Positions 1,549 through 34,488 of a stretch of 64,000 nucleotides of DNA are shown here, one piece after another. Where the stretch lies: contig NZ_LWDV01000009.1 in NCBI RefSeq assembly GCF_001693735.1, positions 727,565 through 791,564 on the forward strand, given 5' to 3'. A model generated the notes under the pieces. It was not told the origin of the DNA. It was given only the letters and a program-made list of their open reading frames with translations, and searched no databases. The stretch comes from Orenia metallireducens (GTDB taxonomy: Bacteria > Bacillota > Halanaerobiia > Halobacteroidales > Halobacteroidaceae). Numbering within the stretch: position 1 is the stretch's first letter; the number at the start of each line of letters is the position of its first letter. Made by a program: the position numbers and the translations under genes.

Positions 1549-1606
1549 ATTATCACTCCTTAATTCTTTAAAAAATAAAAAATACATAGACATGGGGGCA
1601 TATTGC

Positions 1607-1734
1607 GTATAACGTCTCAGAGGTTCGCGACGCCGCTGCTCCCCCCTTACCTCTCATCTAACCGCCAAGTCTCACATAAGTCACCCCATCTTGCTATTCC
1701 CCACCTAATCGGTGTAGCTAACGTCTTGTTATAT
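1607..1734 (-). other. attC site A (second attC type)
   Basis: Left arm TAAC-GTCTC-AGAGGTT-C-GCGACGCC pairs with right arm GGTGTAGC-TAACGTCTT-GTTA. Body and arms match attC M rather than the majority type. Both sites terminate ORF-less cassettes. Confidence 0.9.
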
Positions 1735-2438
1735 GATGTAAATGGCGTACGGTTATCCTCCCAACTTTCCTTCAAACATCTAGCTTCCTACATCAACTTT
1801 TAATATTAATTTCCTTACCCCTGAAAATTTATGAATTAAATACCATTTTAACACAAACACCAGCCAGCCACTTCATTTAACCATCTAAATACTTTATATT
1901 TATCATTCTTACAATTAAGCTAACATTATCCACATTCCTGCAAAAAAAATATAAATTCAAAATTATTGGTTGGCTAATTATAGTTCATATCTTCAAACTT
2001 CTACAACCTCAAATATTTCAATCTATAAATCAAACTAAACATAAAGCAAATACATATCATTATCTGACCGCAATTAGCTAGCATTTCCGCCTAGGAAGTG
2101 CTAGCGGACATATCAAATCTGCACTCTTCTACAATGCTCAAACATATCATTTATTCTCAAAATTTTGATATGTAAAAGCATTCCCTTAATTGCAGTATAA
2201 ATGATTGACTCTGTTTCTTCTAACTCTTGCCAACCAATAATCTCCTTAATATTGGTTTTCCAATATGTTTTGCTATTATTTGAACTAAAACACTCTCAAT
2301 AGAATTCTTTATTAATTAGCTCAATATCTCATAAAAAACAACTATGTAATAAAATAATTCTTACCATTTATCAAACAAAAATCTTTTTGGCTGGCTGCTT
2401 CTAACATAGATTTTACTATGCATCTAGCCATTTATGTC
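1735..2438 (-). other. ORF-less gene cassette with long-range inverted repeat
   Basis: This is a cassette of about 700 bp with no credible ORF on either strand. Its ends are complementary: start GTTATATGACATAAATGGC, outer attC arm GTTATATGATGTAAATGGC. Inside, CAGCCAGCCA (1861-1870) and TGGCTGGCTG (2388-2397) form an inverted repeat around a 517-bp interior. A local hairpin, GCTAGCATTTCCGCCTAGG with its complement, lies near 2076-2106. The cassette at 24568-25002 shares the same CCAGCCAGCC/GGCTGGCTGG pair, a neighbouring AARAAGATYTTT motif and the same attC type. The two are therefore relatives, perhaps expressing an RNA. Confidence 0.7.
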
Positions 2439-2565
2439 ATATAACGTTCCTGGGGTTCGCGACGTTCACGCTACCCCTCTCACTCTACATTCTAACTACT
2501 AAATTTCATAAGTTACCACTTGTCCAACTTCTGACCACATAGCTGAATGTTGCTAACTCCATGTT
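2439..2565 (-). other. attC site B, split by IS110
   Basis: Left arm ATATAACGTTCCTGGGGTTCGCGACGTT and right arm AGCTGAATGTTGCTAACTCCATGTT are present. The outer R'' bases are displaced to 4154 onward (ATGCGATCG) by an IS110 element inserted between TT and A of GTTATGCG. Confidence 0.85.
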
Positions 2566-2572
2566 CGTATAA

Positions 2573-7516: not shown

Positions 7517-7701
7517 TTTTCTCCTCCTTCTTGATTTTAAAGTATTATATTTCTTATTTTTCTGTCAGAAATAATTATATTAAGTTTTTCTAAATCAAAA
7601 AATACTATCACCTCCTTGATAAACTAACATATTTTATTGAAAATTTTATCTATCATAAAATCATATACACTTTGATTATGATTTATTTTAAACTGGATTT
7701 T

Positions 7702-7834
7702 GCCTAACGTCCCGCGGCTTCGCGACGTCCCTAATAACGCTCCCAACTTATAATTAAAGCTACAATCTTACATAAGTCAGCCCTACTTTTCACTTATCCT
7801 CCCAAGTTGGGATGTCGCTAAGGTGCTGTTACAA
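7702..7834 (-). other. attC site D
   Basis: GCCTAAC-GTCCC-GCGGCTT-C-GCGACGTCCC on the left pairs with GGGATGTCGC-TAAGGTGCT-GTTACAA on the right. Majority body type with the inner motif ACATAAGTCAGCCC. Confidence 0.93.
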
Positions 7835-7911
7835 GACGTGCGTCTTTTTAAGTATTTAATCCAAATTTGCTTTATTTGATAATTTTAAGATTTTATTTCC
7901 ATTAACAAAGT

Positions 7912-8858: not shown

Positions 8859-9020
8859 GTCTAATTATCCCTCACTAATTTATATAATTACTTCGATATT
8901 AACAACATTATATCTTATTTTTAGAGGAATTAAAAGACTTACACTAGCAGAAAATTTGAATAACAAACAGAACTTAGCAGTCGGGTAAGTCAGGAGCTTT
9001 ACAGCTCCTTCCTCCCCTAA

Positions 9021-9054
9021 GAACCGTACTTGACACTTTCACGTCATACGGCTC
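9021..9054 (-). ncRNA. Group II intron domain V
   Basis: The 34-nt hairpin starts GAGCCGTATG, has the loop GTGAAAGTGTC and ends AGTACGGTTC. This is the catalytic heart of the ribozyme. It lies between the reverse transcriptase stop and the intron 3' end, as expected. Confidence 0.9.
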
Positions 9055-9099
9055 AAGCTCTCCAAAACTAATCTTCGGATTAGCAAACAATAATTAAAT

Positions 9100-10566: not shown

Positions 10567-11154
10567 AAAGTTTCAATCCTTTCCTGCCTTAGATAACCTT
10601 TAGGAAGTCAGCCTCCTTTCAGAGCAGGGCAAATTTAGAACCCTTATCTATCTCATTACAAGATAACATTCGCTTTTTCCTATTTCCTCTACCCACTAAT
10701 ATTGTATTAACATTGCTGTTAACCTACCTGAAAACCAGGAATATACCGGGCTTACACAGTTCTATACCTTAGCCAATTCATACTGCCTTAGATTCTACCT
10801 TTACTCCGAAGATATCAGTCTATTTGCCAAGCAACACGAAAACTTACTTGACCCCATCTCCCACCTTTTGGTCATAGTGTATCAGCCTAATTTCACTATT
10901 TACGTTTGACGAAGCTTTCAGTAATTCAATTAATTTAATCATAGCAGTATATTTATCCTAGCAATCACCTGCTTCAAGGCTAGCAGTTTGTTTCACATTG
11001 TCCCTACCGCTTAGCACAAAACCGTTACCAGTAATGCACCGGTAGATAGGATTACCTCAAATAGAATAGGTAGTCCAAAAGTCTACCTTACGGTAGACTT
11101 AGACAGCCTAAGATATAGCTTATCCCTATTATTTCAAAGGCTGGTCGCACTGTC

Positions 11155-11288
11155 GCATAACGTCCCGCAGGTTCGCGACGTCCCCTCTAACGTTCCCAAC
11201 CTCTAATTAAAATTAACGTCCTAACATAAGTCAGCCACTCTTTCATTTGTCCTTCCCAAGTTGGGATGTCGCTAACGTGCTGTTATAC
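11155..11288 (-). other. attC site E
   Basis: GCATAAC-GTCCC-GCAGGTT-C-GCGACGTCCC pairs with GGGATGTCGC-TAACGTGCT-GTTATAC. The G in GCAGGTT is matched by the C in TAACGTGCT, a compensatory difference from site D. Confidence 0.93.
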
Positions 11289-11317
11289 GCAGTCTGCCCC
11301 CTCTTCTTACTCTAAGT

Positions 11318-12490: not shown

Positions 12491-12549
12491 ATTATCACCT
12501 CTCTATTCTTTAAAAAATAAAAAGCACATAAGCTATGGGGGCATATTGC

Positions 12550-12678
12550 GTATAACGTCCCTGGGATTCGCGATGTTCAGCTACCTAGAACTATCGTTAA
12601 GAGCAATTAATTACATAAGTCACCACTTCTTATTTCTAAATACTTACTTAGCTGAATGTCGCTAAACCCATGTTATGT
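12550..12678 (-). other. attC site F
   Basis: Left arm GTATAACGTCCCTGGGATTCGCGATGTT, right arm AGCTGAATGTCGCTAAACCCATGTTATGT. The body is shorter and its right arm resembles site B. Confidence 0.9.
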
Positions 12679-12970
12679 GTGCGTTTGCAGGACAGTTATC
12701 CAACTTAATTAAGTCATCGCCTCTGGTTTTGATCTTCCTCTGGTTTTGATCTTCCTCTGGTTTTGATCTTCCTCTGATCTTGAACTTCCACTGGTTTTGA
12801 ACTCCAACTGCTTTTGAACTCCCCCATGGTTTTACTTCACTACTGACTTTAATTTCCCACTCCAGTATTGTAAAGTCTTACTATGCTCTTGAACTTCTAT
12901 ATGTTTTTATCTTTATTAACACTTTAATTGAAACTAACTGAAAATAATAATACTCTCATCTGCAAATGAC
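12679..12970 (-). other. ORF-less cassette with 17-bp tandem repeats
   Basis: A cassette of about 290 bp whose ends GTTATGTGTCATTTGCAG and GTTATGTGTGCGTTTGCAG are complementary. It has no ORF. Three exact 17-bp units CTCTGGTTTTGATCTTC (12721-12771) are followed by about three degenerate ones to about 12823. Seventeen is not a multiple of three, so the array is unlikely to be coding. Confidence 0.75.
12721..12823. repeat. Tandem 17-bp repeat, about six units
   Basis: Units 1-3 are identical. Units 4-6 keep the core TGNTTTTGAACTNC with substitutions. A lone similar word, CTCTTGAACTTC, recurs near 12880-12893. Confidence 0.8.
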
Positions 12971-13103
12971 ACATAACGTCCCGCGGCTTCGCGACGTCCC
13001 CTATAATGCTCCTAACCTAAAATCAAACCACTAAGTCTAACGTGAGTCAGCCCCGCTTTCATTTATGCTCCCTAGTTGGGATGTCGCTAAGGTGCTGTTA
13101 TAC
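12971..13103 (-). other. attC site G
   Basis: ACATAAC-GTCCC-GCGGCTT-C-GCGACGTCCC pairs with GGGATGTCGC-TAAGGTGCT-GTTATAC. It ends the two-gene cassette to its right. Confidence 0.93.
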
Positions 13104-13125
13104 GACGTGCGATTTATTGTTATCA

Positions 13126-14965: not shown

Positions 14966-14993
14966 AATCTTACTTCCTCCTTTTTTGCATGTC

Positions 14994-15123
14994 GTATAAC
15001 GTCCCGCAGATTCGCGACGTCCCTTTTAATGCTCTTAATTTTAGATAAACTTTAAGTCTTACATAAGTCAGCCCAACCTTCATTTATCCTCTCAACTGGG
15101 ATGTCGCTAATTTGTTGTTATAC
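14994..15123 (-). other. attC site H
   Basis: GTATAAC-GTCCC-GCAGATT-C-GCGACGTCCC pairs with GGGATGTCGC-TAATTTGTT-GTTATAC. The GCAGATT/AATTTGT pairing differs from sites D and E in a compensating way at two positions. Confidence 0.92.
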
Positions 15124-15172
15124 GCTGTCGAATTTTTCTCTAAAATTTATATGTACTTTAGTAATAATATTT

Positions 15173-16361: not shown

Positions 16362-16409
16362 TTATATTCTCCTTTCTATAAAATACATACTTACATAAAA
16401 TTCGATGGC

Positions 16410-16567
16410 GTATAACGTTCCTGGTATTTCCGACGTTACCGTCCCGTTAGGGTTGGCATGGCTTTTGCCACTAAAACCCCTAACCCCTCTATTGCAAAAG
16501 ACATGACAAAGGTAATGTCCCGTAGGGTAGGCCGTTCTTTGGCCGTTACGGAAATGCCATGTTAGAC
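16410..16567 (-). other. attC site I (divergent, longer body)
   Basis: GTATAAC-GTTCC-TGGTATTTCCG pairs with CGGAAATGCCAT-GTTAGAC. The body is 158 bp and unlike the majority type. It contains GGCATGGCTTTTGCC and a nearly continuous secondary palindrome (ACGTTACCGTCCCGTTAGGG with CCCGTAGGGTAGGCCGTT). The arms recall attC sites of other bacteria, so this cassette probably arrived separately. Confidence 0.88.
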
Positions 16568-16630
16568 GAAGTGCCCGACAATTTACTGTTTCAGTTAAAA
16601 ATTCTTTTAGCAAAAATATATTATTAATAA

Positions 16631-17425
16631 TCAATCTTCTAATAAATTATTAAATTGTTGACTATATTGAATTGTGTATTTAATAAATTTTACTATTTCA
16701 TCTATCCTATTAAATTTCATATCTTTGCTCCACATCAAAGCATCATTTATTAATGAATCCCATTTTTCACTCAATTCTTTTTTTACCCATCGAGCAGCTT
16801 TAGGTTTTGAAACAACAGTTCCATGATGCAATGTATATATAACTCTACACATACTAAGCACTGCATAGGCTTGGTATTCATCATCATATAATTTACTTTT
16901 ATTATTAATCATTGGCTTCCACCAGTTATACAATATTTTTAATGTTACCCGTTTTAAATCATTTTGTTTTATATATTTAATTTCACTTCTTAAATCCTCA
17001 CCTTTTAAAATCATCCCGTGTTTTTTAAGAACATACTTTTCTATAATCCATTCATTTCCATATCTCAATAATTTTAATTGTCCCTTATGTATATATGGTC
17101 GTGGGTTTTCTGGAGGTTGAAATTCTTTCAATTTATCTTTAGAAATATATGATCCCTCTAATCTATCTCCCCAAATAGGATTATTTGAAACTAATTCATA
17201 ATGCATATTTCTTAAATAAGTTATAATTTCTTTCTTAAGATTTGTTTCAGTAATAACTAAAAAATCAATATCACTAGAATTTAAATTAAAATCACCAACT
17301 GCCAATGATCCTAGAATATATATACTAACAAGTTGTTGTTTCAATATGTTATTAACATTTGATACAAATTTATCTAATAATTTATTGACTCCTGGATATG
17401 ATGTATAAGGTTTAACTTCCCCCAT
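16631..17425 (-). CDS. AadA-like aminoglycoside nucleotidyltransferase family protein
   Basis: 264 aa. The N-terminal nucleotidyltransferase core has YILGSLAVGDFNLNSSDIDFLVI (GS 39-40; metal-binding D52, D54). The C-terminal helical domain has YAVLSMCRVIYTLHHGTVVSKPKAARWVKKELSEKW, the hallmark of the AadA/ANT(9) adenylyltransferase C-terminal domain (DUF4111). Length matches AadA (about 260 aa). AadA genes are classic integron cassettes. Here the host is environmental, the attC is of a different type from its neighbours, and substrate specificity cannot be read from sequence. Confidence 0.75.
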   Translation of the reverse strand: MGEVKPYTSYPGVNKLLDKFVSNVNNILKQQLVSIYILGSLAVGDFNLNSSDIDFLVITETNLKKEIITYLRNMHYELVSNNPIWGDRLEGSYISKDKLKEFQPPENPRPYIHKGQLKLLRYGNEWIIEKYVLKKHGMILKGEDLRSEIKYIKQNDLKRVTLKILYNWWKPMINNKSKLYDDEYQAYAVLSMCRVIYTLHHGTVVSKPKAARWVKKELSEKWDSLINDALMWSKDMKFNRIDEIVKFIKYTIQYSQQFNNLLED

Positions 17426-17464
17426 AATAAAGGTTCACTCTCCTCCTACCACTAAGGGCATTTC

Positions 17465-17595
17465 GTCTAACGTCCCTGAGCTTCACGACGTCTCACCAAT
17501 GCTCCCAACTCTAATTCAAACATAAAACTTTCATATGTCACCCCCCGCTTTCATCTATGCTCCACAGGTTAGATGTCGTTAAGCTCATGTTAGCT
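17465..17595 (-). other. attC site J
   Basis: GTCTAACGTCCCTGAGCTTCACGACGTCT pairs with AGATGTCGTTAAGCTCATGTTAGCT. It ends the 4.3-kb NTPase cassette. Confidence 0.9.
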
Positions 17596-17625
17596 GACGT
17601 ACGGCTTTTTAGTTTAAATACTTTT

Positions 17626-20600: not shown

Positions 20601-21855
20601 AATCCCTAAATTTAACATCTGGCTTTCTTTCTATCAGTTTTTTATAAATTTTTTCAGCTTCTAAACGATTAAAATTTAATTCCATTTCAGAAAATATTAA
20701 GTCAGCTCCTGTTAAAGAAGACCTCTTCCAATCTTCTTCTCTAATAGTAACTAATACTTTAAATTTTGTATAATTATTTGCAACTTCTTTCACTATTTCT
20801 GTCCATTCGACATTACCAGGCTCAACATCTATATAAATCATTAAAGGTAAGTCTACTGATTTAGATATTCCATATAAAGTATTAATAATTCTACGTGCAT
20901 GAGATTTTCCTTTGATATAGTTAATTTGATATGAATAATTAGTTGGATGGAATTCATATAAATAACGATAAGCTAATGTACTTTTTCCTTGCCCTGAAGC
21001 CCCATGAATAATTACTATATTATCTTTTTCAAATTTTTTCTTAATCTGTCTAATCTTTTCTTCTCTAATTACATCTAAATTATTTTTAATATGAATATAT
21101 TTAGCAGATACTCCAACATAAAATTCCTCTCGTACTCGTTCTATAGATTCCTCTTTTTCAACTTTCATATAATCTAATGGTAAAATAGCATTACCATATT
21201 CTTCATGAAAACTAACTCTTTCATTTAAAAACATACCTATTTGATCTAATTTATTTAATAAGGAATGTCTATCTACAAATCCTTCTTCTTCTGACAATTC
21301 ATAAATCCAATACATTAATAAATCAAAAGCAATTTGATAATCAACTGTTACTTGAGGATTTTTTCTTAGAGCTCTTTTTATATTTTCTATAATTTTACTT
21401 TCCTTCACTCTTTCTATTTTTAAATTTTTAAAAATAAGTTCTATTTCTTCTTCTTTGTAATTATAATTCTCCTTCAATTTCTTTTTTACCTTATCCCTAT
21501 CTATTCCCTCTTTTATAATAGCATTATATAATTCAGGGCCTACATTCCCAAAAACTACTAAATTTAATTTAGAGGCTTGTCCCTCTTTTAAAGTCTTTAA
21601 AGACCTTCTAAAAAAAGAGTCTTCTTTTTGAGGAGAAAGAGAAGATAAAGATAAATTAGTAGAATAATTCTTTACTTGTACCACTTCTTTAAGATTAATA
21701 TTATTATCATAAACCGCTAAATCTTCTTTTCCTTCTGGTTGAAACTTAAACTCATCTTCAGTGTGATTCAATATTCTATTAACTATATATAATGTTTGCG
21801 TTCTAAATCCTCGAAAAGCAGATTCAGCCCCTATATCAGATTTCAATCTACTCAC
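17626..21855 (-). CDS. Giant nuclease-STAND-like P-loop NTPase, probable anti-phage protein
   Basis: 1409 aa from GTG at 21855 (AGGAG 7 nt upstream). Residues 1-110 resemble the Cap4/DUF4297 dsDNA nuclease: GAESAFRGFRTQTLYIVNRIL, then KEDLAVYD (D45) and VVQVKNYS (Q60, K62). A P-loop ATPase follows, with HGASGQGKST (Walker A, 285-293), LMIYIDVE (Walker B, 338-345) and VTIREEDW (sensor-like). The remaining ~900 residues are helical and presumably sense a ligand. This nuclease-NTPase-sensor layout is that of Avs and other STAND defence proteins. It is the only gene in one of the longest cassettes here (about 4.3 kb), whose ends GTTAGCTGACATAC and GTTAGCTGACGTAC match. The defence role is inferred. 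Confidence 0.7.
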   Translation of the reverse strand: MSRLKSDIGAESAFRGFRTQTLYIVNRILNHTEDEFKFQPEGKEDLAVYDNNINLKEVVQVKNYSTNLSLSSLSPQKEDSFFRRSLKTLKEGQASKLNLVVFGNVGPELYNAIIKEGIDRDKVKKKLKENYNYKEEEIELIFKNLKIERVKESKIIENIKRALRKNPQVTVDYQIAFDLLMYWIYELSEEEGFVDRHSLLNKLDQIGMFLNERVSFHEEYGNAILPLDYMKVEKEESIERVREEFYVGVSAKYIHIKNNLDVIREEKIRQIKKKFEKDNIVIIHGASGQGKSTLAYRYLYEFHPTNYSYQINYIKGKSHARRIINTLYGISKSVDLPLMIYIDVEPGNVEWTEIVKEVANNYTKFKVLVTIREEDWKRSSLTGADLIFSEMELNFNRLEAEKIYKKLIERKPDVKFRDFEEAWLSFGEKGPLLEFTYLVTQGNTLKDRLKQQIENIEKRISQGEESTQLELLKIVSLASAYDGKVDLSSLLSNLELSAPKYILQLFEKEYLLRRSENGKYLTGLHSIRSKILIDILFDPVISPKNEYIKKCISVLAEEDLKIFILHSLNKHTKYEEILNYLKDIKLSSWVGFNGVINSLLWFGIKQYVEKNRNTIDEVYDRFGYGWYIVLGLDISNSMSDKPINIFEKIDLPNINQDIKDKINGWHKTLRENRDKIYTFLDDYLRQVELPTNFPDSDKDWSNCGEALFWLGKVNIERKINLTEFDYNKALELNSLEYIADILAGLYYYNSNDSRKVLSEIRPKFISRFKKEFNVPIIEDDGEKLTLHCIINIEGKDIEEDNFIHAQIMKNINLMRKVYPDRKFFASQGYGHKFDLIPYDMDDTQKKIPIRNLPLKWLTNINAIFGELASWKYRPDNWTEYVENIISKREKLVIILKQLIQGIGEHFKKQSKVNIFGKYISSLEWDNLKKSFCYEVPFPKTVVDSWGFTSEGRKVNDISNQLPEIALNLQRYSQFKDLYSNFKAAVQNFLQQAINIILAKTEFKGKSMKEKRKINKIFEANGIKFDDDINRICMINLGNILKTYNQFQREFQRIFGKYVDDDEIINLKTEEEETYKILLGVWNKFAIEYFKYDMDIVNTAETEIIEFKKDMENNIQNELNNLSNNNINVNIVKSFEKEKVILLDIPDSLILNESLEKTFKNLKTVFQSIKDSYFKRILAELNFQKFRVIPLVKGKVINLRSYEIKLYRLLDIDEENLEFFDLVPQLLNKEILEELNIEGWFDYISELKVLEEFEVEFYELYNYLFHVTQLKGLEELSEENLLANGILKNYTDEYIEKVFIKFEKTTRLLKKIMDDLENRTRCLLDYLNNHPERFKPQYMDRFEIVDLASELGEKINPSEFDPSKDYRLHEILQILYNWRKNLKEIIEIPSIIYLFLSRELIEEYCIRNKI

Positions 21856-21931
21856 AATATCACTCCTATCATAGAAAAGAAATTTACAAAATAAAATTAA
21901 TTTCACATTTTTATATAAAACTGAGTATGTC

Positions 21932-22064
21932 AGCTAACGTCCCGCGGCTTCGCGACGTCCCCGTCAACGCTCCTTACCTCCAATTAAAGCTACAACCTAA
22001 CATAAGTCAGCCCCACTTTTCATTTATGCACTCAAACTGGGATGTCGCTAAGGTGCTGTTACAC
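21932..22064 (-). other. attC site K
   Basis: AGCTAAC-GTCCC-GCGGCTT-C-GCGACGTCCC pairs with GGGATGTCGC-TAAGGTGCT-GTTACAC. Almost identical to attC D. Both end Rpn cassettes. Confidence 0.93.
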
Positions 22065-22151
22065 GACGTGCGTCTTTTTAATTATTTAATCCAAATTTAC
22101 TGTATTTAATAATTTTAAGATTTTATTTCCATTGATAAGGTAAAAAAATAA

Positions 22152-22188: not shown

Positions 22189-23064
22189 TTATTTCAAATT
22201 TTTTATCTCTTTCTTAGATAAGCCTGTTACTTCAACTATTTGCTCTATATCTAACCCCATATTTAATAATTTTTTAGCAGTATTTATTTTTTCTAACCTT
22301 TTTCCTTCTTCCCTAGCTTCTTCGGTAGCACCTATTATATTAGTAACTTGGTCATGAATTGTTTTTTGCCTACTCTCATATAATTCTCTAGCTTTCTTAT
22401 CATGACTTAATAACTCTAAAACTTCCGCCGCTTCTTTCAACTCTTTTATTCTTTCCTCAAGCATTCTTATCACCTCACTATCAGGATTTTTCAAAAATAG
22501 TGCCCAAGGAATTAAATCATCTTTTCCTCTTTCACTTTCTACTTCATCAATATTTTTAAAACTATCTGCATTTAATTTAGGCAATTCTATAAAATGAATT
22601 TCCTCTAAATCGGTCAATACTTCATTAGTCTCTTTTTCCTTTAATACATAAGCATTATGATACCTATTATTCTCTCTTAAATAATTAAAATTTAAGATGT
22701 TTATTGTTACAGTCTTTTGTAATTTTTGATAAGGATCTCCTTCTTCCATTTGTGATTCAAATAATTTACTCCAATAATATAATGTCCTTCTCTTCATATT
22801 ATATTGATTCTTCAACTGAATCTCTATATTTATCTTAGTATTATTATTAGCAGTTGCTTTGATATCTAATCGACTAAACTTATCATCTTCCCAATCTTTA
22901 TCCATATCTGTATTTTCTATTTTTACTCTTACAATTTCTTCTTCTGTTCCTTTAGTTCCAAAAACACTATTCAAAAATGCAATCAATATTTCTGGATGTT
23001 TTTCAGAGCCAAATATCTGTTTAAATACAAAATCAACTTTAGGGTCTAAAATTTCTCTTTTCAT
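22189..23064 (-). CDS. Rpn-family PD-(D/E)XK nuclease, cassette copy 2
   Basis: 291 aa from the ATG at 23064. An upstream ATG at 23070 is also possible, but the copies at 7959 and 23444 align from MKRE, 10 nt after GAGGG. It has the same LDPKVDFVFKQIFGSEKHPEIL start, RLDIKA and NIEIQLKNQYNM nuclease residues and helical tail as copy 1. The main differences are in the last 35 residues, including a shorter linker at EEAREEGKRLEK. The neighbouring cassette carries copy 3, so this is a cassette duplication followed by divergence. Confidence 0.85.
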   Translation of the reverse strand: MKREILDPKVDFVFKQIFGSEKHPEILIAFLNSVFGTKGTEEEIVRVKIENTDMDKDWEDDKFSRLDIKATANNNTKINIEIQLKNQYNMKRRTLYYWSKLFESQMEEGDPYQKLQKTVTINILNFNYLRENNRYHNAYVLKEKETNEVLTDLEEIHFIELPKLNADSFKNIDEVESERGKDDLIPWALFLKNPDSEVIRMLEERIKELKEAAEVLELLSHDKKARELYESRQKTIHDQVTNIIGATEEAREEGKRLEKINTAKKLLNMGLDIEQIVEVTGLSKKEIKNLK

Positions 23065-23187
23065 ATACATTATCCCTCACTAACTACTATAATTACTTCA
23101 ATTTAACAATATTATATCTTATTTTCAGAGAAATTAAAAGTCATACCATAACGAAAAATTTGAGTACCCAACAGAATTTAGCATGTC

Positions 23188-23317
23188 GTGTAACGTCCCG
23201 CAGCTTCGCGACGTCCTCGCCAACGCTCCAATCTCTAATTAAAACCACAAGCTCACATAAGTCAGTCCCACTTTCATTTATGCTCACAGCTAGGATGTCG
23301 CTAAGCTGCTGTTACAC
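23188..23317 (-). other. attC site L
   Basis: GTGTAAC-GTCCC-GCAGCTT-C-GCGACGTCCT pairs with AGGATGTCGC-TAAGCTGCT-GTTACAC. The GCAGCTT/AAGCTGC arm is perfectly complementary. Confidence 0.93.
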
Positions 23318-23405
23318 GACGTGCGTCTTTTTAAGTATTTAATCCAAATTTACTGTATTTAATAATTATAAGATTTTATTTCCACTAGCAAGGTAAAAAA
23401 ATAAC

Positions 23406-23443: not shown

Positions 23444-24319
23444 TTATTTTAAATTTTCTACTTCTTCCTTATTTAAACCTGTTGCTTTACATGCCTGTTC
23501 AATACTTAATCCCATATTTAATAAGTTCTTAGCAGTATTTAGTTTTCCTATTTTTATTCCTTCTTCCCTAGCTTCTTCTGTAGCACCTATTATATTAGTA
23601 ACTTGATCATGAATTGCCTTTTGCCGACTCTCATATAGCTCTCTAGTTTTCTTATCATGGCTCAATAATTCTAAAACTTCTGCCGCCTCTTTCAACTCTT
23701 TTATTCTTTCCTCAAGCATTCTTATCACCTCGCTATCGGGATTTTTTAAAAATAGTGCCCAAGGAATTAAATCATCCTGTTCTCTCTTACTTTCTACTTC
23801 GTCAATACTACTAAAACTATTTGCATCTAATTTAGGTAATTCTATAAAATGAATTTCCTCTAAATCAGTCAATACTTCATTAGTCTCTTTTTCCTTTAAT
23901 ACATAAGCATTATGATACCTATTATTCTCTCTTAAATAATTAAAATTCAAAATATTTATTGTTACAGTCTTTTGTAATTTTTGATAAGGATCTCCTTCTT
24001 CCATTTGCGATTCAAATAATTTACTCCAATAATATAATGTTCTTCTTTTCATATTATATTGATTTTTCAACTGAATTTCTATATTTACCTTAGTATTATT
24101 ATTAGTTGTTGCCTTAACATCTAACCGAGAAAACTTATCATCTTCCCAATCCTTATCTATATCTGGGTTTTCTATTTTTACACTTTCAATCTCATCTTCT
24201 GTACCCTTTGTTCCAAATACACTATTCAAAAATGCAATCAATATTTCTGGATGTTTCTCCGAACCAAATATTTGCTTAAATACAAAATCAACTTTAGGGT
24301 CTAAAATTTCTCTTTTCAT
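23444..24319 (-). CDS. Rpn-family PD-(D/E)XK nuclease, cassette copy 3
   Basis: 291 aa, nearly collinear with copies 1 and 2. The nuclease core reads RLDVKATTNNNTKVNIEIQLKNQYNM, and the C-terminal tail ends GLSIEQACKATGLNKEEVENLK. GAGGG lies 10 nt before the ATG. Most differences from copies 1 and 2 are conservative or in the tail, suggesting all three are under selection. The cassette start GTTACACGACATGCTAAG and outer arm GTTACACGACGTGCG are the same as for copy 2. Confidence 0.85.
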   Translation of the reverse strand: MKREILDPKVDFVFKQIFGSEKHPEILIAFLNSVFGTKGTEDEIESVKIENPDIDKDWEDDKFSRLDVKATTNNNTKVNIEIQLKNQYNMKRRTLYYWSKLFESQMEEGDPYQKLQKTVTINILNFNYLRENNRYHNAYVLKEKETNEVLTDLEEIHFIELPKLDANSFSSIDEVESKREQDDLIPWALFLKNPDSEVIRMLEERIKELKEAAEVLELLSHDKKTRELYESRQKAIHDQVTNIIGATEEAREEGIKIGKLNTAKNLLNMGLSIEQACKATGLNKEEVENLK

Positions 24320-24436
24320 ATCTATTTATCCCTCACTAATTAATATTATTCTCAATATTAAGTATATTATATCTCATTTTTAGAGGAATTAAAAGAACAC
24401 ATGCCCATACAAACAATGAATAGAACTTAGCATGTC

Positions 24437-24567
24437 GTGTAACGTCCCAGAGGTTCGCGACGCCACCCCTATCTCCCAATTCAGCATCCAACCACCAAAT
24501 CTCATATAAGTCATCCCCAGCTACTATTTCCCACTTAAATCTAGGTGTAGCTAACGTCTTGTTATGT
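24437..24567 (-). other. attC site M (second attC type)
   Basis: GTGTAACGTCCCAGAGGTTCGCGACGCC pairs with GGTGTAGCTAACGTCTTGTTATGT. The arm and body match attC A, and like A it ends an ORF-less cassette. Confidence 0.9.
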
Positions 24568-25002
24568 GATGGAATCGGCGTCATAGCATCTACCTGACTG
24601 TTCTTCCATACCACTATGTATCATAAAAGCTCATACTTAGAGTTATTAGTTAGTTTCTTCTATCCTCAAAACCTTGATGAGAATAATTGCTAAAATGAGA
24701 CTCCAGCCAGCCAAACCCCTAACACTAAATCTAATTTCCAACTCTATTTCTCCTATTAAAAGCAAATGTCCAGACTAATATAACAGCTCATCACTACATG
24801 AATTATAAAAGTCATCCCATCTCTTAACTAAATTAAACAATTAACTTTTATAGCACAATTTTCTTTCCTAACTAATAAAAAAAAGATCTTCTTGGCTGGC
24901 TGGTAACATTAACATACAAGTTCAAAAATTTTTATCTTAGTTTTTAGGATAGAAGATCACAAATCTCTATTACCAACCATGCAGAAGTTAGCCGATTCTT
25001 TC
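24568..25002 (-). other. ORF-less gene cassette, relative of that at 1735-2438
   Basis: About 435 bp with no ORF of note. Ends GTTATGTGAAAGAATCGGC and GTTATGTGATGGAATCGGC are complementary. CCAGCCAGCCAA (24703-24714) and TTGGCTGGCTGG (24892-24903) form a 12-bp inverted repeat around 177 bp. On the cassette strand the upstream arm is followed by GAAGATC and a T run, as in the other ORF-less cassette. Possible RNA gene; no product is recognised. Confidence 0.7.
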
Positions 25003-25133
25003 ACATAACGTCCCGCAGCTTCGCGACGTCCCCACATTGCTCCAACCCCTAATAAAACTCACAAGCTCACATCAGTCAGCCCCACTTTTAATTTATCCTC
25101 TCAAGTTGGGATGTCGCTAAGGTGCTGTTATGT
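25003..25133 (-). other. attC site N
   Basis: ACATAAC-GTCCC-GCAGCTT-C-GCGACGTCCC pairs with GGGATGTCGC-TAAGGTGCT-GTTATGT. Confidence 0.93.
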
Positions 25134-25178
25134 GATGTTGATCTCGGTTTTTTATGATTATCATATTATTTCAATTAT

Positions 25179-26294
25179 TTAATATTCTAATCTACTAAAT
25201 GTTGTATTTACTATATTCTTTAATACAGTTTTTGCACGATTATACAGCCAATCAAACCCTACAATTTTAACTACACCTTTCCTTGATTCATTTTCTTGCT
25301 TTAAACGAGCAATTTGTTCTTCATTTAAAGAAGATTCCATCCCTATAACAACTAAACAAAAAGGTCTCCATATATTATCAAAAGTTTTTCTAGCATAAAG
25401 GTTATTTGAAATAATCCATTCGCGATATTCCAAAGCTTGTCTTATAGCATGTGTCACTTTAGAATTTAAATTACCATTTTTATTTATAATGATATCAGTA
25501 GGTTTTTCTATTTCAACAACTGTATAATTATCATCCATCTGTTTAATAATAAAATCTGGAATTAACTTCTCACCAAGTTTAGGCTTACTCCATATGTTTG
25601 CATAAAATGAATCTAGAATATAAGGGTGTTTTTCTAAGTATTTATGAACTAATTCTTCATATAGATTATCTTGATTTATTAGATTATTATATTCGTCTAA
25701 AACTTTATCATTAAGTCTAAACCACCTACTACTTAAAGCATAACCAAAATTATTAAATGCTTTTTTATTATCATTTATATAACTACTTGCAAGTAGTGTA
25801 TGAAATGAAAGATATAAATCAATAGGTATTAGGTCATCCGAGTCAAAAGAAGTCACCAAATTAACTAACTCTCTTCTAACATCATTCACAAAGCTTTTAT
25901 TTCTATAACAATTGTTATTATTTAACTTTTCACAAATTTTTGATGAAAAATAAGATTTAATATACCTATCAATCAATTCATTTAAAGAGTATCCTGCTAT
26001 ATGTGAAAACACTCTTAATATTGCACTTATCACTTTGCTTTTTTTAGTATTTATAACTAATTTAGATAATAACTTTAACCCTTCTTCTTCCCACAACATA
26101 GCACTCATAACAGAGCAAAATATATATTCTTTATCAGGATATGTTTGCTTATATTCATTATCTACTAATAACATTATGTTATTCAATCCTACAGAATCTT
26201 TACTTTCCAAACATTTTAATAAAACCATTTCAAAATCTTTAGTAGACCAATCATCTTGATTAATAATTTTATCTATCATTTTTCTTACATCCAT
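25179..26294 (-). CDS. Shedu-like PD-(D/E)XK nuclease domain protein, cassette gene
   Basis: 371 aa. The N-terminal ~210 residues are helical and unassigned. The C-terminal part reads as a Shedu/DUF4263-type nuclease: KLGEKLIPDFIIKQ (D247), TVVEIEKPTDII (E261, K264) and SKVTHAIRQALEYREWI (H282, Q286), then a beta strand (CLVVIGMES). Shedu proteins are single-gene anti-phage nucleases. The sole-gene cassette context fits, since integrons are known carriers of such genes. The family call rests on the motif order; another PD-(D/E)XK family is possible. Start ATG follows TAAGGGTGGTAATTAT. Confidence 0.6.
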   Translation of the reverse strand: MDVRKMIDKIINQDDWSTKDFEMVLLKCLESKDSVGLNNIMLLVDNEYKQTYPDKEYIFCSVMSAMLWEEEGLKLLSKLVINTKKSKVISAILRVFSHIAGYSLNELIDRYIKSYFSSKICEKLNNNNCYRNKSFVNDVRRELVNLVTSFDSDDLIPIDLYLSFHTLLASSYINDNKKAFNNFGYALSSRWFRLNDKVLDEYNNLINQDNLYEELVHKYLEKHPYILDSFYANIWSKPKLGEKLIPDFIIKQMDDNYTVVEIEKPTDIIINKNGNLNSKVTHAIRQALEYREWIISNNLYARKTFDNIWRPFCLVVIGMESSLNEEQIARLKQENESRKGVVKIVGFDWLYNRAKTVLKNIVNTTFSRLEY

Positions 26295-26346
26295 ATAATT
26301 ACCACCCTTAATTCAAAAATAAAATAATATCTAAGAGATCAATGTC

Positions 26347-26478
26347 ACATAACGTCCTACAGCTTCGCGACGTCCTCATTAATGCTCTGTAACTTAATTT
26401 AATGCAACCTGAATTTCATAAGTCATCCCCAGTTTCATTTATTCACTGCAACTGGATGTCGCTAAGCTGCTGTTATGC
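26347..26478 (-). other. attC site O
   Basis: ACATAAC-GTCCT-ACAGCTT-C-GCGACGTCC pairs with GGATGTCGC-TAAGCTGCT-GTTATGC. Confidence 0.92.
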
Positions 26479-26498
26479 GAAGTCAACATTGCACCCAA

Positions 26499-27443
26499 TT
26501 AACTATTTAGTACAAATTTTATTTTGCTTATTTTAGGGTCTTCTACTTCAGGTTTTTCCTCACAATACCAATTATAAGCTTTTCTTAAACCTTCTCTTAA
26601 ATTAATTTTAGGAATATATAAATCATCTTCTTCTAATTTTTCTATACTCAATAAATATGTAACATCTCTAAATGGAAAAAATCTTCTTACATTTACACCT
26701 AAATCATCATAATCTACTTTCTTTATTCCTATTTCTTTTCCTACAACTTCCATAGCAGTTTCAACTAAACATTCCCATGATACTTTTTCAGGATGAGTTA
26801 AATTGTATGCATTTCCTATTGCTTTTTCCGAATACATAGCACTTTCAAAAGTTTTTACTAAATCTTTAATATAAACAAATTGATTTTTACTATTTCCTGC
26901 TGGTATCGGCAAAATTGATTCCTCACTTATTCTATCAAATAAATAAGTTTCTCTATACAAATTGTTTCCTTCTCCATAAATGTAAGTAGGTCTAAAAATA
27001 GTAATCGGAAACTTTTCTTTTTCATATAAACTAAATAAATAATCCTCTGCTTTCTTTTTATTTAATCCATAGTCTCCCCAATTTTGATTAAAACCTCTTG
27101 AATAATCTTCTTTAACAACCTCTTCAGTAGCTTCATAAACCGAACCAGAACTACAGAAAATATAATTTTTCAGTTTAGTTCTATCTAAAACTGATGTTAG
27201 TAATGCAACATCTTCCTTTGTATATGCTGAAATATCAAATACAACATCATATGATTTTCCTCTTAATTTATCTCTTAAATCGGTTGCAGATTTTCTGTTT
27301 GCTTTTATATGATTTCTAATCCCATCATAATTAACAGCTTTTTTCCCTCTAGTAAAAATATCAACTTTGTTACCTTTATCTATCATATATTTAGCGATTG
27401 AACTGCTAACAAACTGTGTTCCTCCCATGATTAATATTTTCAT
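26499..27443 (-). CDS. NAD-dependent epimerase/dehydratase family protein, cassette gene
   Basis: 314 aa from the ATG at 27443 (GGGGAG, 8 nt). The Rossmann N-terminus has KILIMGGTQFVSSSIAKYM; the usual GGTxFVG glycine is Ser. FCSSGSVYE and the catalytic-type YGLNKKKAED follow, then FRPTYIYGEGNN. This is the extended SDR family acting on nucleotide-linked or free sugars. The substrate cannot be named. Cassette ends GTTATGCGAAATCAAC and GTTATGCGAAGTCAAC match. A metabolic gene here is a reminder that not all cargo is defence. Confidence 0.8.
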   Translation of the reverse strand: MKILIMGGTQFVSSSIAKYMIDKGNKVDIFTRGKKAVNYDGIRNHIKANRKSATDLRDKLRGKSYDVVFDISAYTKEDVALLTSVLDRTKLKNYIFCSSGSVYEATEEVVKEDYSRGFNQNWGDYGLNKKKAEDYLFSLYEKEKFPITIFRPTYIYGEGNNLYRETYLFDRISEESILPIPAGNSKNQFVYIKDLVKTFESAMYSEKAIGNAYNLTHPEKVSWECLVETAMEVVGKEIGIKKVDYDDLGVNVRRFFPFRDVTYLLSIEKLEEDDLYIPKINLREGLRKAYNWYCEEKPEVEDPKISKIKFVLNS

Positions 27444-27477
27444 TGTCATATCTCCCCTACCTTCATTTGTTGATTTC

Positions 27478-27610
27478 GCATAACGTCCCGCAGATTCGCG
27501 ACGTCCCTGATAACGCTCATATTCTCAAGATAAACCTGCAAATCTAACATAAGTCATCCCAGCCCCCATTTATGCTCATCAACTGGGATGTTGCTAATCT
27601 GCTGTTATAC
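27478..27610 (-). other. attC site P
   Basis: GCATAAC-GTCCC-GCAGATT-C-GCGACGTCCC pairs with GGGATGTTGC-TAATCTGCT-GTTATAC. The GCAGATT/AATCTGC arm is perfectly complementary. Confidence 0.93.
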
Positions 27611-27638
27611 GCAGTCTCACTTTGCACTATATGTTACT

Positions 27639-28655
27639 TTATATAAATATATCCATCTTAGGGTCTACTAATAAACTATTGGGTTTACTAAACAATGACA
27701 TATCATATAATTTAAGATAATCCCTTTTCTCTTTTTCACTTAATGACTCCCATTTTATAGGAGAAAGATATACATTCTCAACATATAAAGTTACCATATT
27801 TGAAACTATAACTTTCTGTTTCTCTAAAGCTCTATTTAAAATCTGATTATCTATAAATTCAAAATAATTTTTATGCTGTTGAAGATAACTCATAATAATA
27901 AATGTTTTTTGATTTTGAGGGAAAATAGTTAAAAATATTGGTTTAATATTTTTATAATAAATTAAATCATTAATTAAATTACCTTCTACATCCCATTCAA
28001 TAAAAAATAAAGAAGAAACTGCTATATGATACTCTTCAGGAAGTTCAATCACTTTTGACTCAATTTTATAAAATTTATCCTTACCCAAATTAATGTTCAT
28101 TGGAATTTTTAAAGATTCTAATTTTTCTATTGATTCATTAGTTCCTCTAGAAATCAATTTTAAATGTTTTTTATAATCATTTAAACCAATATCTATTGGA
28201 ATTCCACAAAATTTTCTTAAATCTATTAGTTCTTCTTTACTTAAAGATAACATTTTTTCATATAGATTTTTTACAGTTCTTTTAGTATTATATTCTTTAG
28301 CTAAGGCTCTATAAGCAAATAAAAATTCTTGTTCCTTATTACCTATTTTATAATCATATAATTCGATAGGTTTAAATATATTAGTGTCATGTTCATTGCA
28401 AAATCCCAAAAAAGTAGAAGCCTTTTTGCGTCCTATTCTTTCCAATGTTGGTTTAGGAAATCCAAACTTATTAATTTTGACCTTTATACCTAATACATCG
28501 CCATCATCAGAAATTTTATTTAAAATTTTATTATTCTGTATTGAATGTGCATTTATAACTTTTGAAGAACAATTACTATAAAAACAATCTTTATATTCAC
28601 ATCCTTTATTTAATTGACTTTGTAGTTTACTAAAAGCTATTGCCATTTGATTCAT
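27639..28655 (-). CDS. Unrecognised protein with N-terminal Cys/His zinc-like cluster, cassette gene
   Basis: 338 aa, not assigned to a family. The N-terminus has CEYKDCFYSNC (C19, C24, C29), NAHSIQNNKIL (H37) and LGFCNEHD (C86, H89), a spaced Cys/His set of the kind that binds zinc in HNH-like or treble-clef folds. The C-terminal 200 residues contain predicted beta strands (IEWDVEGNLINDLIYYKN, PIFLTIFPQNQKTFIIMSYL) and no membrane segment. It is the only gene of its cassette. Ends GTTATACGCAATCTCACTT and GTTATACGCAGTCTCACTT match over 19 nt with one difference. The function is unknown; nucleic-acid binding is a guess. Confidence 0.5.
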   Translation of the reverse strand: MNQMAIAFSKLQSQLNKGCEYKDCFYSNCSSKVINAHSIQNNKILNKISDDGDVLGIKVKINKFGFPKPTLERIGRKKASTFLGFCNEHDTNIFKPIELYDYKIGNKEQEFLFAYRALAKEYNTKRTVKNLYEKMLSLSKEELIDLRKFCGIPIDIGLNDYKKHLKLISRGTNESIEKLESLKIPMNINLGKDKFYKIESKVIELPEEYHIAVSSLFFIEWDVEGNLINDLIYYKNIKPIFLTIFPQNQKTFIIMSYLQQHKNYFEFIDNQILNRALEKQKVIVSNMVTLYVENVYLSPIKWESLSEKEKRDYLKLYDMSLFSKPNSLLVDPKMDIFI

Positions 28656-28714
28656 AAGACCATCCCTCTTTTTTTAAAATTATTTAAAAGTAGTTCCGTT
28701 TTAAGTGAGATTGC

Positions 28715-28847
28715 GTATAACGTCCCGCAGGTTCGCGACGTCCCCAATACTGATCCTAACCTCTAACTAAAATTACAAGCTAACATAAGTCAGCCCCTAC
28801 TTTCATTTATCCTCTCAAGGTAGGATGTCGCTAACGTGCTGTTAGGT
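28715..28847 (-). other. attC site Q (first attC after attI)
   Basis: GTATAAC-GTCCC-GCAGGTT-C-GCGACGTCCC pairs with AGGATGTCGC-TAACGTGCT-GTTAGGT. It ends the attI-proximal cassette. Confidence 0.93.
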
Positions 28848-28883
28848 GACGTAGATGCTAACTTTAAGCCTTCACTAAAAAAT

Positions 28884-29450
28884 TTAAACTTCTATCTGCT
28901 TAATAAATTTTAAATTTTCATTCTCAAAACTCAACAAAACTATGTCTGGCATTTTAATAGTTTTCCAAAAATTATAATCATATTTTTCATCAAAATAATT
29001 TAAAATAACTCCTAACCAAGTCCCGTGAGTTCCAACTATAATATTTTCATTATGATATTTTCTTATTATTTTATTTAATGCTCTTATTCCTCTTTCCTGC
29101 ACTTGATTTAATGATTCTCCACCTTCCAAGCAATAATCAAAATCATTCCATTGATGCTTTACAAAATTTCTAAATTCTTCATCATTTAAATATCTATTCG
29201 CTACTTTTCTCTCTTTAAAATCTTCTATTATTTCCATATCTAAATTCTTATCTTTTGATACACCTTCTACAGTATGTACTGCTCTAATATAAGGACTTGA
29301 TAACACTCTTGTAATATTCAAGTCTTTAAAAAAATCAGTTACTCTCTTAACATCATTTTTACCTTTTTCAGATAATGGTCGATAAAAATCATCATCCTTT
29401 GGAACATAATTACTCTCTGCATGTCTAACAAAATAAATGTTTGTTTTCAT
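28884..29450 (-). CDS. Histidine phosphatase family protein, first cassette
   Basis: 188 aa, phosphoglycerate-mutase-like fold. The phosphohistidine site is FVRHAESN (R9-H10). SSPYIRAVHTVEGV, the ERKVANRYLNDEEF acid loop and VGTHGTWLGVILN with the second His complete the set. The substrate could be a small phosphorylated metabolite or protein. A GAGGGAGATAAAAA ribosome site precedes the ATG. As the cassette next to attI, it should be the most recently inserted and the one most exposed to any attI-borne promoter. A perfect 16-bp palindrome (29568-29583) lies in its leader. Confidence 0.8.
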   Translation of the reverse strand: MKTNIYFVRHAESNYVPKDDDFYRPLSEKGKNDVKRVTDFFKDLNITRVLSSPYIRAVHTVEGVSKDKNLDMEIIEDFKERKVANRYLNDEEFRNFVKHQWNDFDYCLEGGESLNQVQERGIRALNKIIRKYHNENIIVGTHGTWLGVILNYFDEKYDYNFWKTIKMPDIVLLSFENENLKFIKQIEV

Positions 29451-29567
29451 TTTTTATCTCCCTCATTCTGAATATTAATTCTCTCTTTTTTAATCATGTC
29501 ATTTAATAAAAATCCTATAATAACAAACAAACTAAATTTCTTTCATTAAGTAACAAACAACTATCAT

Positions 29568-29583
29568 ATATGATATATCATAT
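29568..29583. promoter_or_regulatory. Perfect palindrome upstream of the first cassette gene
   Basis: ATATGATATATCATAT is a perfect 16-bp palindrome 118 bp upstream of the start codon, in otherwise simple AT-rich DNA. It could be an operator; no regulator is identified. Confidence 0.35.
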
Positions 29584-29629
29584 TTTTATTATCATCATTA
29601 TTGTTATAACACCTGCATTGCATCTATGT

Positions 29630-29746
29630 CACCTAACATATATCTTAACGAAGTATGTCGTATAATTCTCTTATTTATAGGTATTAACGACATACGTCAT
29701 AAAACCCTCATATCCAGTGGTATTAACGAAGTACTTCGTTAATACC
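29630..29746 (-). other. attI-like site with three phased palindromes
   Basis: The half site GTTAGGTGACATAGATGC (minus strand; crossover between 29636 and 29637) is the first cassette's start and complements the outer arm of attC Q. Beyond it lie three palindromic motifs beginning TTAACG at 29645, 29684 and 29723, exactly 39 bp apart: TTAACGAAGTATGTCGTATAA, TTAACGACATACGTCATAA and a perfect 28-bp palindrome GGTATTAACGAAGT/ACTTCGTTAATACC (29719-29746). Regularly spaced recombinase-binding sites beside a crossover are expected of attI. No full attC occurs here. Binding by the adjacent recombinase is inferred. Confidence 0.75.
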
Positions 29747-29780
29747 CTATATATCTTTAAACTTAGTGCCCCTCAAAAGC

Positions 29781-30824
29781 TTATATCTTATCTAAAGGAC
29801 TCTCAATCTTACTAATACTTTTTTTACTGACATGTGTATAAACTTCTGTTGTTCTAGAACTCTTATGACCAAGCAACTCTTGAATATAGCGAAGATCAGT
29901 CCCCCTTTCTAATAAATGTGTAGCAAAAGAATGCCTTAAATCATGAACAGATACATCCTTTTTTATCTTTGCTTTCGAGCAAGCCTTCTTAAAAATTTTT
30001 TGTACTGTTCTTTTGGTCAAATGAGTATCTGGCTTTGCTCCAGAGAATAACCATTTTTTAGGATTATACACTTTATAGTAGTCTCTTATTACATCTAAAG
30101 CAAGATATGATAGTGTAGTATATCTATCCTTTCTACCTTTTCCTTGCCTAACTCTAATTAACATTCTATCACTATCAATATCCTCACATTTTAATTTAAC
30201 AACCTCTCCTACTCTCAGTCCAGCTGAATAGACCAAATATAAAATTGTTTTATGCTTTTGATTGTCTAATGATTCTAATATTCTAACTACCTCTTTCTCA
30301 CTTAATACTTGAGGTAGCTTTTTCTCTTTTCTAGGTCGAGGTATACCAATTGTAATATTATCCTTCTTAAGTACCTTCGCAAACAAAAATTTCAAAGCAC
30401 TAACTGCTTGATTAACAAAAGAATGAGAAAGTTTCCTTTCATTTAATAAAAATAATAGATACCTTTTGATATCTTCTGCCCTAACTTTATCAATACTCTC
30501 ATTACTAAAATTAATAAATTGTCTAATATGACTCAAATATACATCCTCTGTTCTTTTACTATATCCCTTCAACCTTAAACATTCTATAAATTTTTTTATT
30601 GTAATTTCATTTTCACTAAAATATTCAAAATTTAAGACAACCTTTTCATCTTTAAAAATTTCTTTTATTTTCTTTATATTATCGAATGAATAAGGGACTA
30701 TCCAAACCTTATCTTCTGCATCCCACCTCCGTCCTCTCAACTGCCTTATTCTCTCTACCCTTTTCTCAGAATACTTAAAACTAACTACTAAAAAATCTTC
30801 ATTCTTATTTACTACTATAGACAT
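29781..30824 (-). CDS. Tyrosine recombinase, candidate non-canonical integron integrase
   Basis: 347 aa from the ATG at 30824 (AAAGGAG, 7 nt). An upstream in-frame TTG at 30947 lacks a ribosome site. Residues 1-65 form a module with RQLRGRRWDAEDKVWIVPY, like the short HARP/SMARCAL-type motif seen in some Firmicute recombinases. The SAM-like core-binding domain spans about 70-165 and the catalytic domain about 170-347, with R204 (SAGLRVGE), K229, H294-R297 (HDLRHSFATH), H320 (LLGHKSS) and Y329 (EVYTHVS), ending ESPLDKI. The C-terminal phrase recalls IntI and XerC/D. Between the Lys and HxxR there is no IntI-specific extra segment; the spacing is Xer-like. It points toward attI and the cassettes (same strand), as in the reversed integron of Treponema. 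Confidence 0.8.
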   Translation of the reverse strand: MSIVVNKNEDFLVVSFKYSEKRVERIRQLRGRRWDAEDKVWIVPYSFDNIKKIKEIFKDEKVVLNFEYFSENEITIKKFIECLRLKGYSKRTEDVYLSHIRQFINFSNESIDKVRAEDIKRYLLFLLNERKLSHSFVNQAVSALKFLFAKVLKKDNITIGIPRPRKEKKLPQVLSEKEVVRILESLDNQKHKTILYLVYSAGLRVGEVVKLKCEDIDSDRMLIRVRQGKGRKDRYTTLSYLALDVIRDYYKVYNPKKWLFSGAKPDTHLTKRTVQKIFKKACSKAKIKKDVSVHDLRHSFATHLLERGTDLRYIQELLGHKSSRTTEVYTHVSKKSISKIESPLDKI

Positions 30825-34078: not shown

Positions 34079-34207
34079 TTTTAATCATAGTGTTATTTAG
34101 GAAGATTACCTATAACTACAAAGAAGATAATCAGCTATTAACTAGAATTAATATATTAACATCTTGTGCTAGTATAAAAGCTAATATAATTTGTACTTAT
34201 TTAGACA

Positions 34208-34488
34208 TATAGTCTCGTGAACTTAGACTGAAATTTTCCAGTATTAATATTTCTATAAAAGTTTTATAATTATATTAAGTTATAGACAAAAGTTATATGT
34301 TCTAGATACTATATTGGATAAAATTCATTTTAGATTCACAAATCTATATAGTCTCGTGAACTTAGACTGAAATTTTCCAGTATAAATGTTTCTATAAAAA
34401 TTTTAGAGTTAGATTAAGTTATAGACAAAAGTTATATGTTTTAGATACTATTTTGGATAAATTTCATTTTAGATTCACAAATCTATAG
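34208..34488. repeat. Two tandem ~138-bp noncoding repeats
   Basis: Units start at 34208 and 34347 and the next TATAG lies at 34484. They agree over most positions, including AGTCTCGTGAACTTAGACTG and AAGTTATAGACAAAAGTTA. Each unit has the hairpin AGTCT-CGTGAACTT-AGACT. The 540-bp gap between 34079 and 34619 holds no ORF. Tandem small RNAs or regulatory sites are possible. Confidence 0.75.

Follow-up and report, generated by a model that had tools for sequence, protein, structure and literature searches.

The window analysed here, a 64,000-nucleotide stretch of the genome of the salt-loving bacterium Orenia metallireducens (contig NZ_LWDV01000009.1, positions 727,565 to 791,564), very probably carries a chromosomal integron that relies on a tyrosine recombinase lacking the I2 helix as its integrase. 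This reading is carried by the anatomy of the locus, the missing I2 segment, the absence of a canonical IntI above cut-off in the genomes searched, the rule that joins the cassette ends, the adjacency of recombinase and cassettes across hosts and the position of the enzyme outside IntI. The system works like an integron, and its enzyme is not an IntI by the criteria tested. The locus is best read as one member of a widespread integron class built on an I2-independent recombinase, in which the folded attC is probably read by other means.

The recombinase and its cassette array

The recombinase gene stands beside attI in the interval 29637-30824, which the sequence-only reading had singled out and which takes in attI itself (Table 1). 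All six catalytic residues are present (R204, K229, H294, R297, H320 and Y329) and are invariant in an alignment with 21 relatives, with K229, H294 and R297 at the positions originally assigned to them. An IntI-specific extra helix had been reported as lacking, and comparison with known integrases bears this out. The phmmer match to VchIntIA (2a3v) is split in two around query residues 240-266, opposite IntI residues 171-239, so that 27 residues stand in place of about 69 in 2a3v; the additional domain with the I2 helix (about 40 residues) is therefore missing, and the alignment of the 21 relatives likewise lacks the segment. On the IntI model TIGR02249 the enzyme scores 227.4 bits in two stretches, below the curated cut-off of 265, while the canonical IntI controls (L100, L104 and L105) score 419-473 bits in a single stretch. 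The best NCBI model for the enzyme is NF040815 (XerA_Arch), with 232.7 bits against a cut-off of 220. This model evidently takes in the whole family, and a link to integrons is already hinted at in its annotation, since its product name reads 'site-specific tyrosine recombinase/integron integrase'. Inspection of the ORFs neighbouring the recombinase revealed no IS91 transposase. The genome also has separate Xer-like genes, and a second copy of the 5' part of the recombinase gene, upstream region included, is found at G000:C8:685304-685516 (L002) with no attC nearby; this copy is 83% identical to the recombinase over 71 aa.

Recombinase and cassettes share one orientation, as first described. 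attI is positioned at the 3' end of the gene, roughly 75-145 bp past the stop codon, and the cassettes follow from it in the same direction. Three inverted sites of the type TTAACGA-N6-TCGTTAA, about 40 bp apart and Xer-like, lie between the stop codon and the attI crossover (G29637|T29636 on the minus strand), and across 26 loci a half-site TCGTxAA tends to stand about 8 nt upstream of the G|TTA crossover. The attC array, called clear from the letters alone, comprises 16 imperfectly palindromic sites in the window, and a covariance model built from 14 of them scores these 14 at 95-155 bits. The array extends past the window, with a further attC at G000:C9:725532.

Each cassette begins GTTANNNG at attI or at the preceding attC. 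The 5' arm (R'') of each attC is complementary over about 16 nt, across G|TT, to the start of its own cassette, which lies inside the neighbouring attC or, for cassette 1, inside attI. Complementary ends of this kind are what integron cassettes need. A cassette-junction test gave 85 matches out of 112, where the shuffles averaged 50, and none of the 100,000 reached as high a score. The complementarity therefore points to past excision and insertion at G|TT. It has one exception, at nt 11, where A is found in 17/17 cassette starts and faces C in 14 of 16 R'' arms, so that the outer stem of the circular cassette would carry a single A.C mismatch at a fixed place.

Table 1. Features of the integron in the window (window positions; genes belonging to a cassette are given in the feature column)
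Feature	Position	Strand	Basis
I2-less integron recombinase, 347 aa, catalytic RKHRHY set	29781..30824	minus	ATG at 30824
Codons of N-terminal module (aa 1 to ~70), bb-a-bb-a-b fold predicted by AlphaFold2	30606..30824	minus	
attI, crossover G|TT at 29637|29636	29637..29780	minus	sequence, junction test, consensus across loci
Cassette 1: histidine phosphatase gene 28884-29450 and attC 28711-28855	28721..29636	minus	junction test
Cassette 2: gene 27639-28655 and attC 27474-27618	27484..28720	minus	ORF list, junction test
Cassette 3: NAD-dependent epimerase gene 26499-27449 and attC 26343-26486	26353..27483	minus	junction test
Cassette 4: SduA-like (Shedu) gene 25179-26294 and attC 24999-25141	25009..26352	minus	junction test
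attC	24433..24575	minus	covariance model
attC; PDDEXK_2/Rpn gene 23444-24319 in upstream cassette	23184..23325	minus	covariance model
attC; Rpn-like gene 22189-23070 in upstream cassette	21928..22072	minus	covariance model
attC; STAND NTPase gene 17626-21906 in upstream cassette	17461..17603	minus	covariance model
Divergent long attC of AadA-like cassette (gene 16631-17425)	16406..16571	minus	junction test
attC	14990..15131	minus	covariance model
attC	12967..13111	minus	covariance model
attC	12546..12686	minus	covariance model
attC, adjoins group II intron 8980-11073	11151..11296	minus	covariance model
attC	7698..7842	minus	covariance model
attC	2435..2571	minus	covariance model
attC	1603..1742	minus	covariance model

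The STAND NTPase (1426 aa) and the SduA (Shedu)-like protein are defence-like cargo. The attC of the AadA-like nucleotidyltransferase cassette (16406-17425) differs in sequence from the others and keeps the same end rule; this cassette was perhaps captured from the array of another host. The group II intron carries a reverse transcriptase, directly adjoins its attC and lies on the strand of the cassettes. A 139-nt intergenic repeat is present at 34207-34484 in two tandem copies that are 94% identical. Elsewhere in the same genome, a second, decayed integron (G000:C10:66156-77839, L040) retains a broken recombinase remnant, attI repeats and four attC, and recombinase-free attC clusters are located at C9:353681-372322 and C9:902028-903334.

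Folding of attC and the N-terminal module

The attC sites were folded in their circle form (DNA parameters, cassette-sense strand), as an RNAalifold consensus of the array form recovers no more than one small hairpin on the L'/spacer' side, the R arms there coming from different cassettes. The circle form is the more stable, with a mean of -21.5 versus -18.1 kcal/mol for the array form (Wilcoxon p 0.0015, n = 16), and the array form of most sites folds slightly better than random. In the free circle R'' meets the start of its own cassette, the one sequence with which it can pair in full, and the fold is accordingly better than in the array copy; capture would therefore be favoured over loss, and the free circle over excision. 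A system that is integron-like but recombines double-stranded attC in the Xer style, with no folding of a single strand, would be in keeping with the three Xer-like inverted sites in attI, with the double-strand activity of Xer relatives and with an array-form fold so little above random. The R arms, however, lie more than 100 bp apart and are still complementary over their 16 nt in the circle, and the L arms are mutually complementary as well. Such pairing matters only if the strand folds or is extruded as a cruciform, which argues for folding and makes the double-strand route unlikely.

For an integron of the I2-less kind proposed here, we infer that the recombinase acts on the folded strand and that landmarks in attC, together with the N-terminal module, replace I2. 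The enzyme would bind attI as a double strand, through the TCGTxAA half-sites, and the attC of a cassette as a folded single strand; one strand would be exchanged at G|TT, with replication resolving the junction as in IntI systems. Strand and polarity, for which IntI uses I2 on extrahelical bases, may be read from the conserved A.C mismatch, the asymmetric spacer (1 versus 5 nt) and an A.G mismatch in the L arm, and a HARP/XPB-DRD/MutS-I-like domain at the N-terminus would be the best candidate reader.

The N-terminal module, an addition already seen in the sequence-only reading, spans residues 1 to about 70 and was modelled by AlphaFold2 with a mean pLDDT of 85 alone and about 93 inside the whole protein. 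The top Foldseek matches of the model are the XPB damage-recognition domain, the HARP domain of SMARCAL1 (4o66) and MutS domain I, with probabilities up to 0.97 but E values of 0.05-0.3. VIA-align places T4 UvsW first (Z 7.3), with XPB (6.9) and HARP (4.5, rmsd 1.8 over 48) lower in a list that also contains unrelated proteins of like Z; Z values of 4.5-7.3 lie in a range to which the tool attaches no firm verdict. Among Pfam families HARP (PF07443) comes first for several members, with E from 1e-4 to 0.035 and every score under the cut-off: the window protein scores 14.2 bits and the best relative 22.1, against a gathering cut-off of 25. A HARP identity by sequence profile against the PDB was set aside, the comparison giving a chance-level match to 4o66 alone (E 1.8). 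The predicted fold may be akin to that of the XPB-DRD/HARP/MutS-I group of structure-reading DNA-binding domains. Domains of the HARP, XPB-DRD and MutS-I types reportedly bind fork, junction or mismatched DNA, as Mason is said to have described in 2014, and a mismatch or junction reader joined to an enzyme that acts on DNA with mismatches at set places would make a coherent, if hypothetical, picture. The module appears not to be an absolute requirement, nor a plain replacement for I2, because one member of the window clade (G092/L166, locus L191) heads an array without it, and a contig from a viral collection encodes a canonical IntI (L105, 7977-9215) that has both I2 and a comparable module (hhalign probability 95.6).

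Relationship to IntI, Xer and other recombinases

In a careful tree of 64 rows, all ten IntIs with I2 fall together in a single clade (support 100/100) that leaves the window family outside, and the window enzyme belongs to a clade of 26 rows (support 98/95) that is likewise outside IntI. The Xer rows lie across a 100/99 branch from the window family. The earlier proposal of a different recombinase lineage, drawn from Xer-like spacing, therefore stands as to separation from the IntI clade and is refined as to kinship: IntI, and not XerC/D, is the closer relative of the window enzyme, which forms a separate clade within a wider IntI-like group that includes other I2-less recombinases. The latter branch near the window clade in an order that the tree does not settle. 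In AU tests, a grouping of the window family with IntI to the exclusion of the other I2-less enzymes is not rejected (p 0.42), nor is one that unites every I2-less enzyme (p 0.34). The data are therefore compatible with three histories: I2 was gained once integrons already existed, it was lost on the stem, or there were two origins.

The enzyme might thus be an IntI that lost I2 secondarily and represents no independent lineage. Consistent with this, its closest solved structure, by sequence and by fold, is the Vibrio integron integrase 2a3v, the family shares the C-terminal SPLD of IntI, one I2-bearing IntI has the N-terminal module too, and the AU test permits the joint clade. Against it, the IntI clade excludes the window family with full support and other I2-less recombinases lie beside that family; a loss within the sampled IntIs is therefore unlikely, and we regard secondary loss in general as improbable. 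A bolder form of the preferred reading, conceivable though short of probable, is that cassettes are recombined as single strands without I2 in a second widespread integron class, the N-terminal HARP/XPB-DRD/MutS-I-like domain reading the fixed defects of attC; integron-type recombination would then have arisen twice, or integrons would predate I2.

With classical integrons (TIGR02249; VchIntIA and IntI1) the locus shares a recombinase beside attI, cassettes of a gene plus attC, the G|TT crossover, cassette ends that are complementary in the circle and a catalytic core closest to 2a3v. Its enzyme differs from IntI in lacking the I2/additional domain, in bearing an N-terminal module, in scoring under the IntI cut-off and in forming its own clade, and its layout differs in the co-direction of recombinase and cassettes and in an attI at the 3' end of the recombinase. 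Classical attC sites have a 7-nt core consensus, whereas the R complementarity of the window sites covers 16 nt with one conserved mismatch. XerA, XerC and XerD also lack I2, and an XerA model is the one that fits the window enzyme best; the window family differs from them in its tie to attI/attC arrays, its N-terminal module and its place beyond the 100/99 branch. By protein match, IS91-associated I2-less recombinases of the TnpF type (for example beside ISVsa3 and tet(X3) in Acinetobacter) are up to 52% identical in the core (residues 111-345), and differ in having no N-terminal module in the match and in adjoining IS91 transposases. The HARP/XPB-DRD/MutS-I domains may resemble the predicted fold of residues 1-70, with a sequence match under curated cut-offs, and in the window such a fold would be fused to a recombinase. 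Spirochaete (Treponema-type) integrons have integrase and cassettes co-directed as well and are likened here by orientation only, their enzymes being IntIs; typical Spirochaetota IntIs are in reverse orientation (PMC9668308).

The I2 helix has been described as a feature of integron integrases alone, as necessary for capturing cassettes and as the key step in the origin of integrons (PMC7790495, PMC4792948). Archaeal IntIs were certified by the I2/additional domain (PMC9668308), and a genome survey defined or selected intI by the additional domain (PMC2426708). Because I2 serves as the criterion for IntI, arrays of the window type would be filed as integrase-less attC clusters; for Firmicutes, one complete integron and a few such clusters are on record (PMC9024848). 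We found no description of I2-less integrons in the open-access papers searched, and the class is apparently undescribed. If it works, it would overturn the I2 criterion, account for the missing recombinase of some 'orphan' arrays, add to the integrons of Bacillota, of which surveys report almost none (PMC9024848), and make the origin of integrons directly testable.

Occurrence of the recombinase beside attC arrays

The sequence-only reading had allowed for a canonical intI elsewhere in the genome; a search of the genome of the window and 12 others of its order turned up no gene at or above the TIGR02249 cut-off. All 13 have attC of the window type and 10 have the recombinase. The three genomes without it have 1, 2 and 4 attC hits, and those with it up to 85, 45, 32 and 30.

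Adjacency was scored for 26 recombinase ORFs, each followed by 600 bp or more of sequence. They come from the order itself, from elsewhere in its phylum, from a Ratteibacteria MAG, from plasmids of Chryseobacterium and from one contig of a viral collection. An attI junction with a complementary cassette end is present downstream in 20 of the 26 and upstream in none of 25, and a control in which single bases were shuffled passes in 28 of 1040 cases (2.7%). Position 11 was omitted from the junction score, by a rule set after some loci had been seen, because an earlier, stricter cassette-chain detector missed arrays with the conserved mismatch. Loci L242-L247 were added after the scoring rule as a partial check: the junction test is positive for L242 and L247, and weak attC-model hits (best E 9e-5) come from L242, L243, L245 and L246. 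In relatives the same gene is thus mostly found beside attC arrays, and the concern that the recombinase might commonly occur away from them holds only for exceptions, with no attI or attC near the family loci L177 and L180-L182, three of which belong to one genus. This pattern suggests that the recombinase moves the cassettes. That it is instead a bystander, in an ordinary CALIN built by a canonical IntI since lost or acting in trans, would fit the common occurrence of CALINs in IntI-less genomes, usually explained in this way (PMC8618304), and the three genomes that have attC alone, but is very improbable given the lack of any IntI at cut-off in the order, the few attC where the recombinase is missing, attI half-sites that recur at an about constant distance and a recombinase at the attI end, never on the other side, in several Bacillota families, Ratteibacteria and a Bacteroidota plasmid.

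Outside the order, the recombinase is positioned directly upstream of attI and cassettes in other Bacillota families, in the Ratteibacteria MAG and on a Chryseobacterium plasmid. The Ratteibacteria locus, ordered panC - recombinase - attI - MTase/RE cassette - attC - panD and with cassette ends near-complementary over about 21 nt, is the clearest far relative of the window integron. A phage origin of the recombinase was considered and rejected, as no phage record matches at 1e-40 and a direct scan of viral contigs came back empty; an alignment-based scan of viral contigs returned, for the most part, I2-less enzymes of more distant kinship together with canonical IntIs. I2-less recombinases are found on two Chryseobacterium plasmids, L060 (NZ_CP041688) and L061 (NZ_CP094530), which places a member of the class on a plasmid; L060 has a cassette array whose long attC repeats are near-identical. 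On L061 there is also an IS91 transposase beside a second tyrosine recombinase gene.
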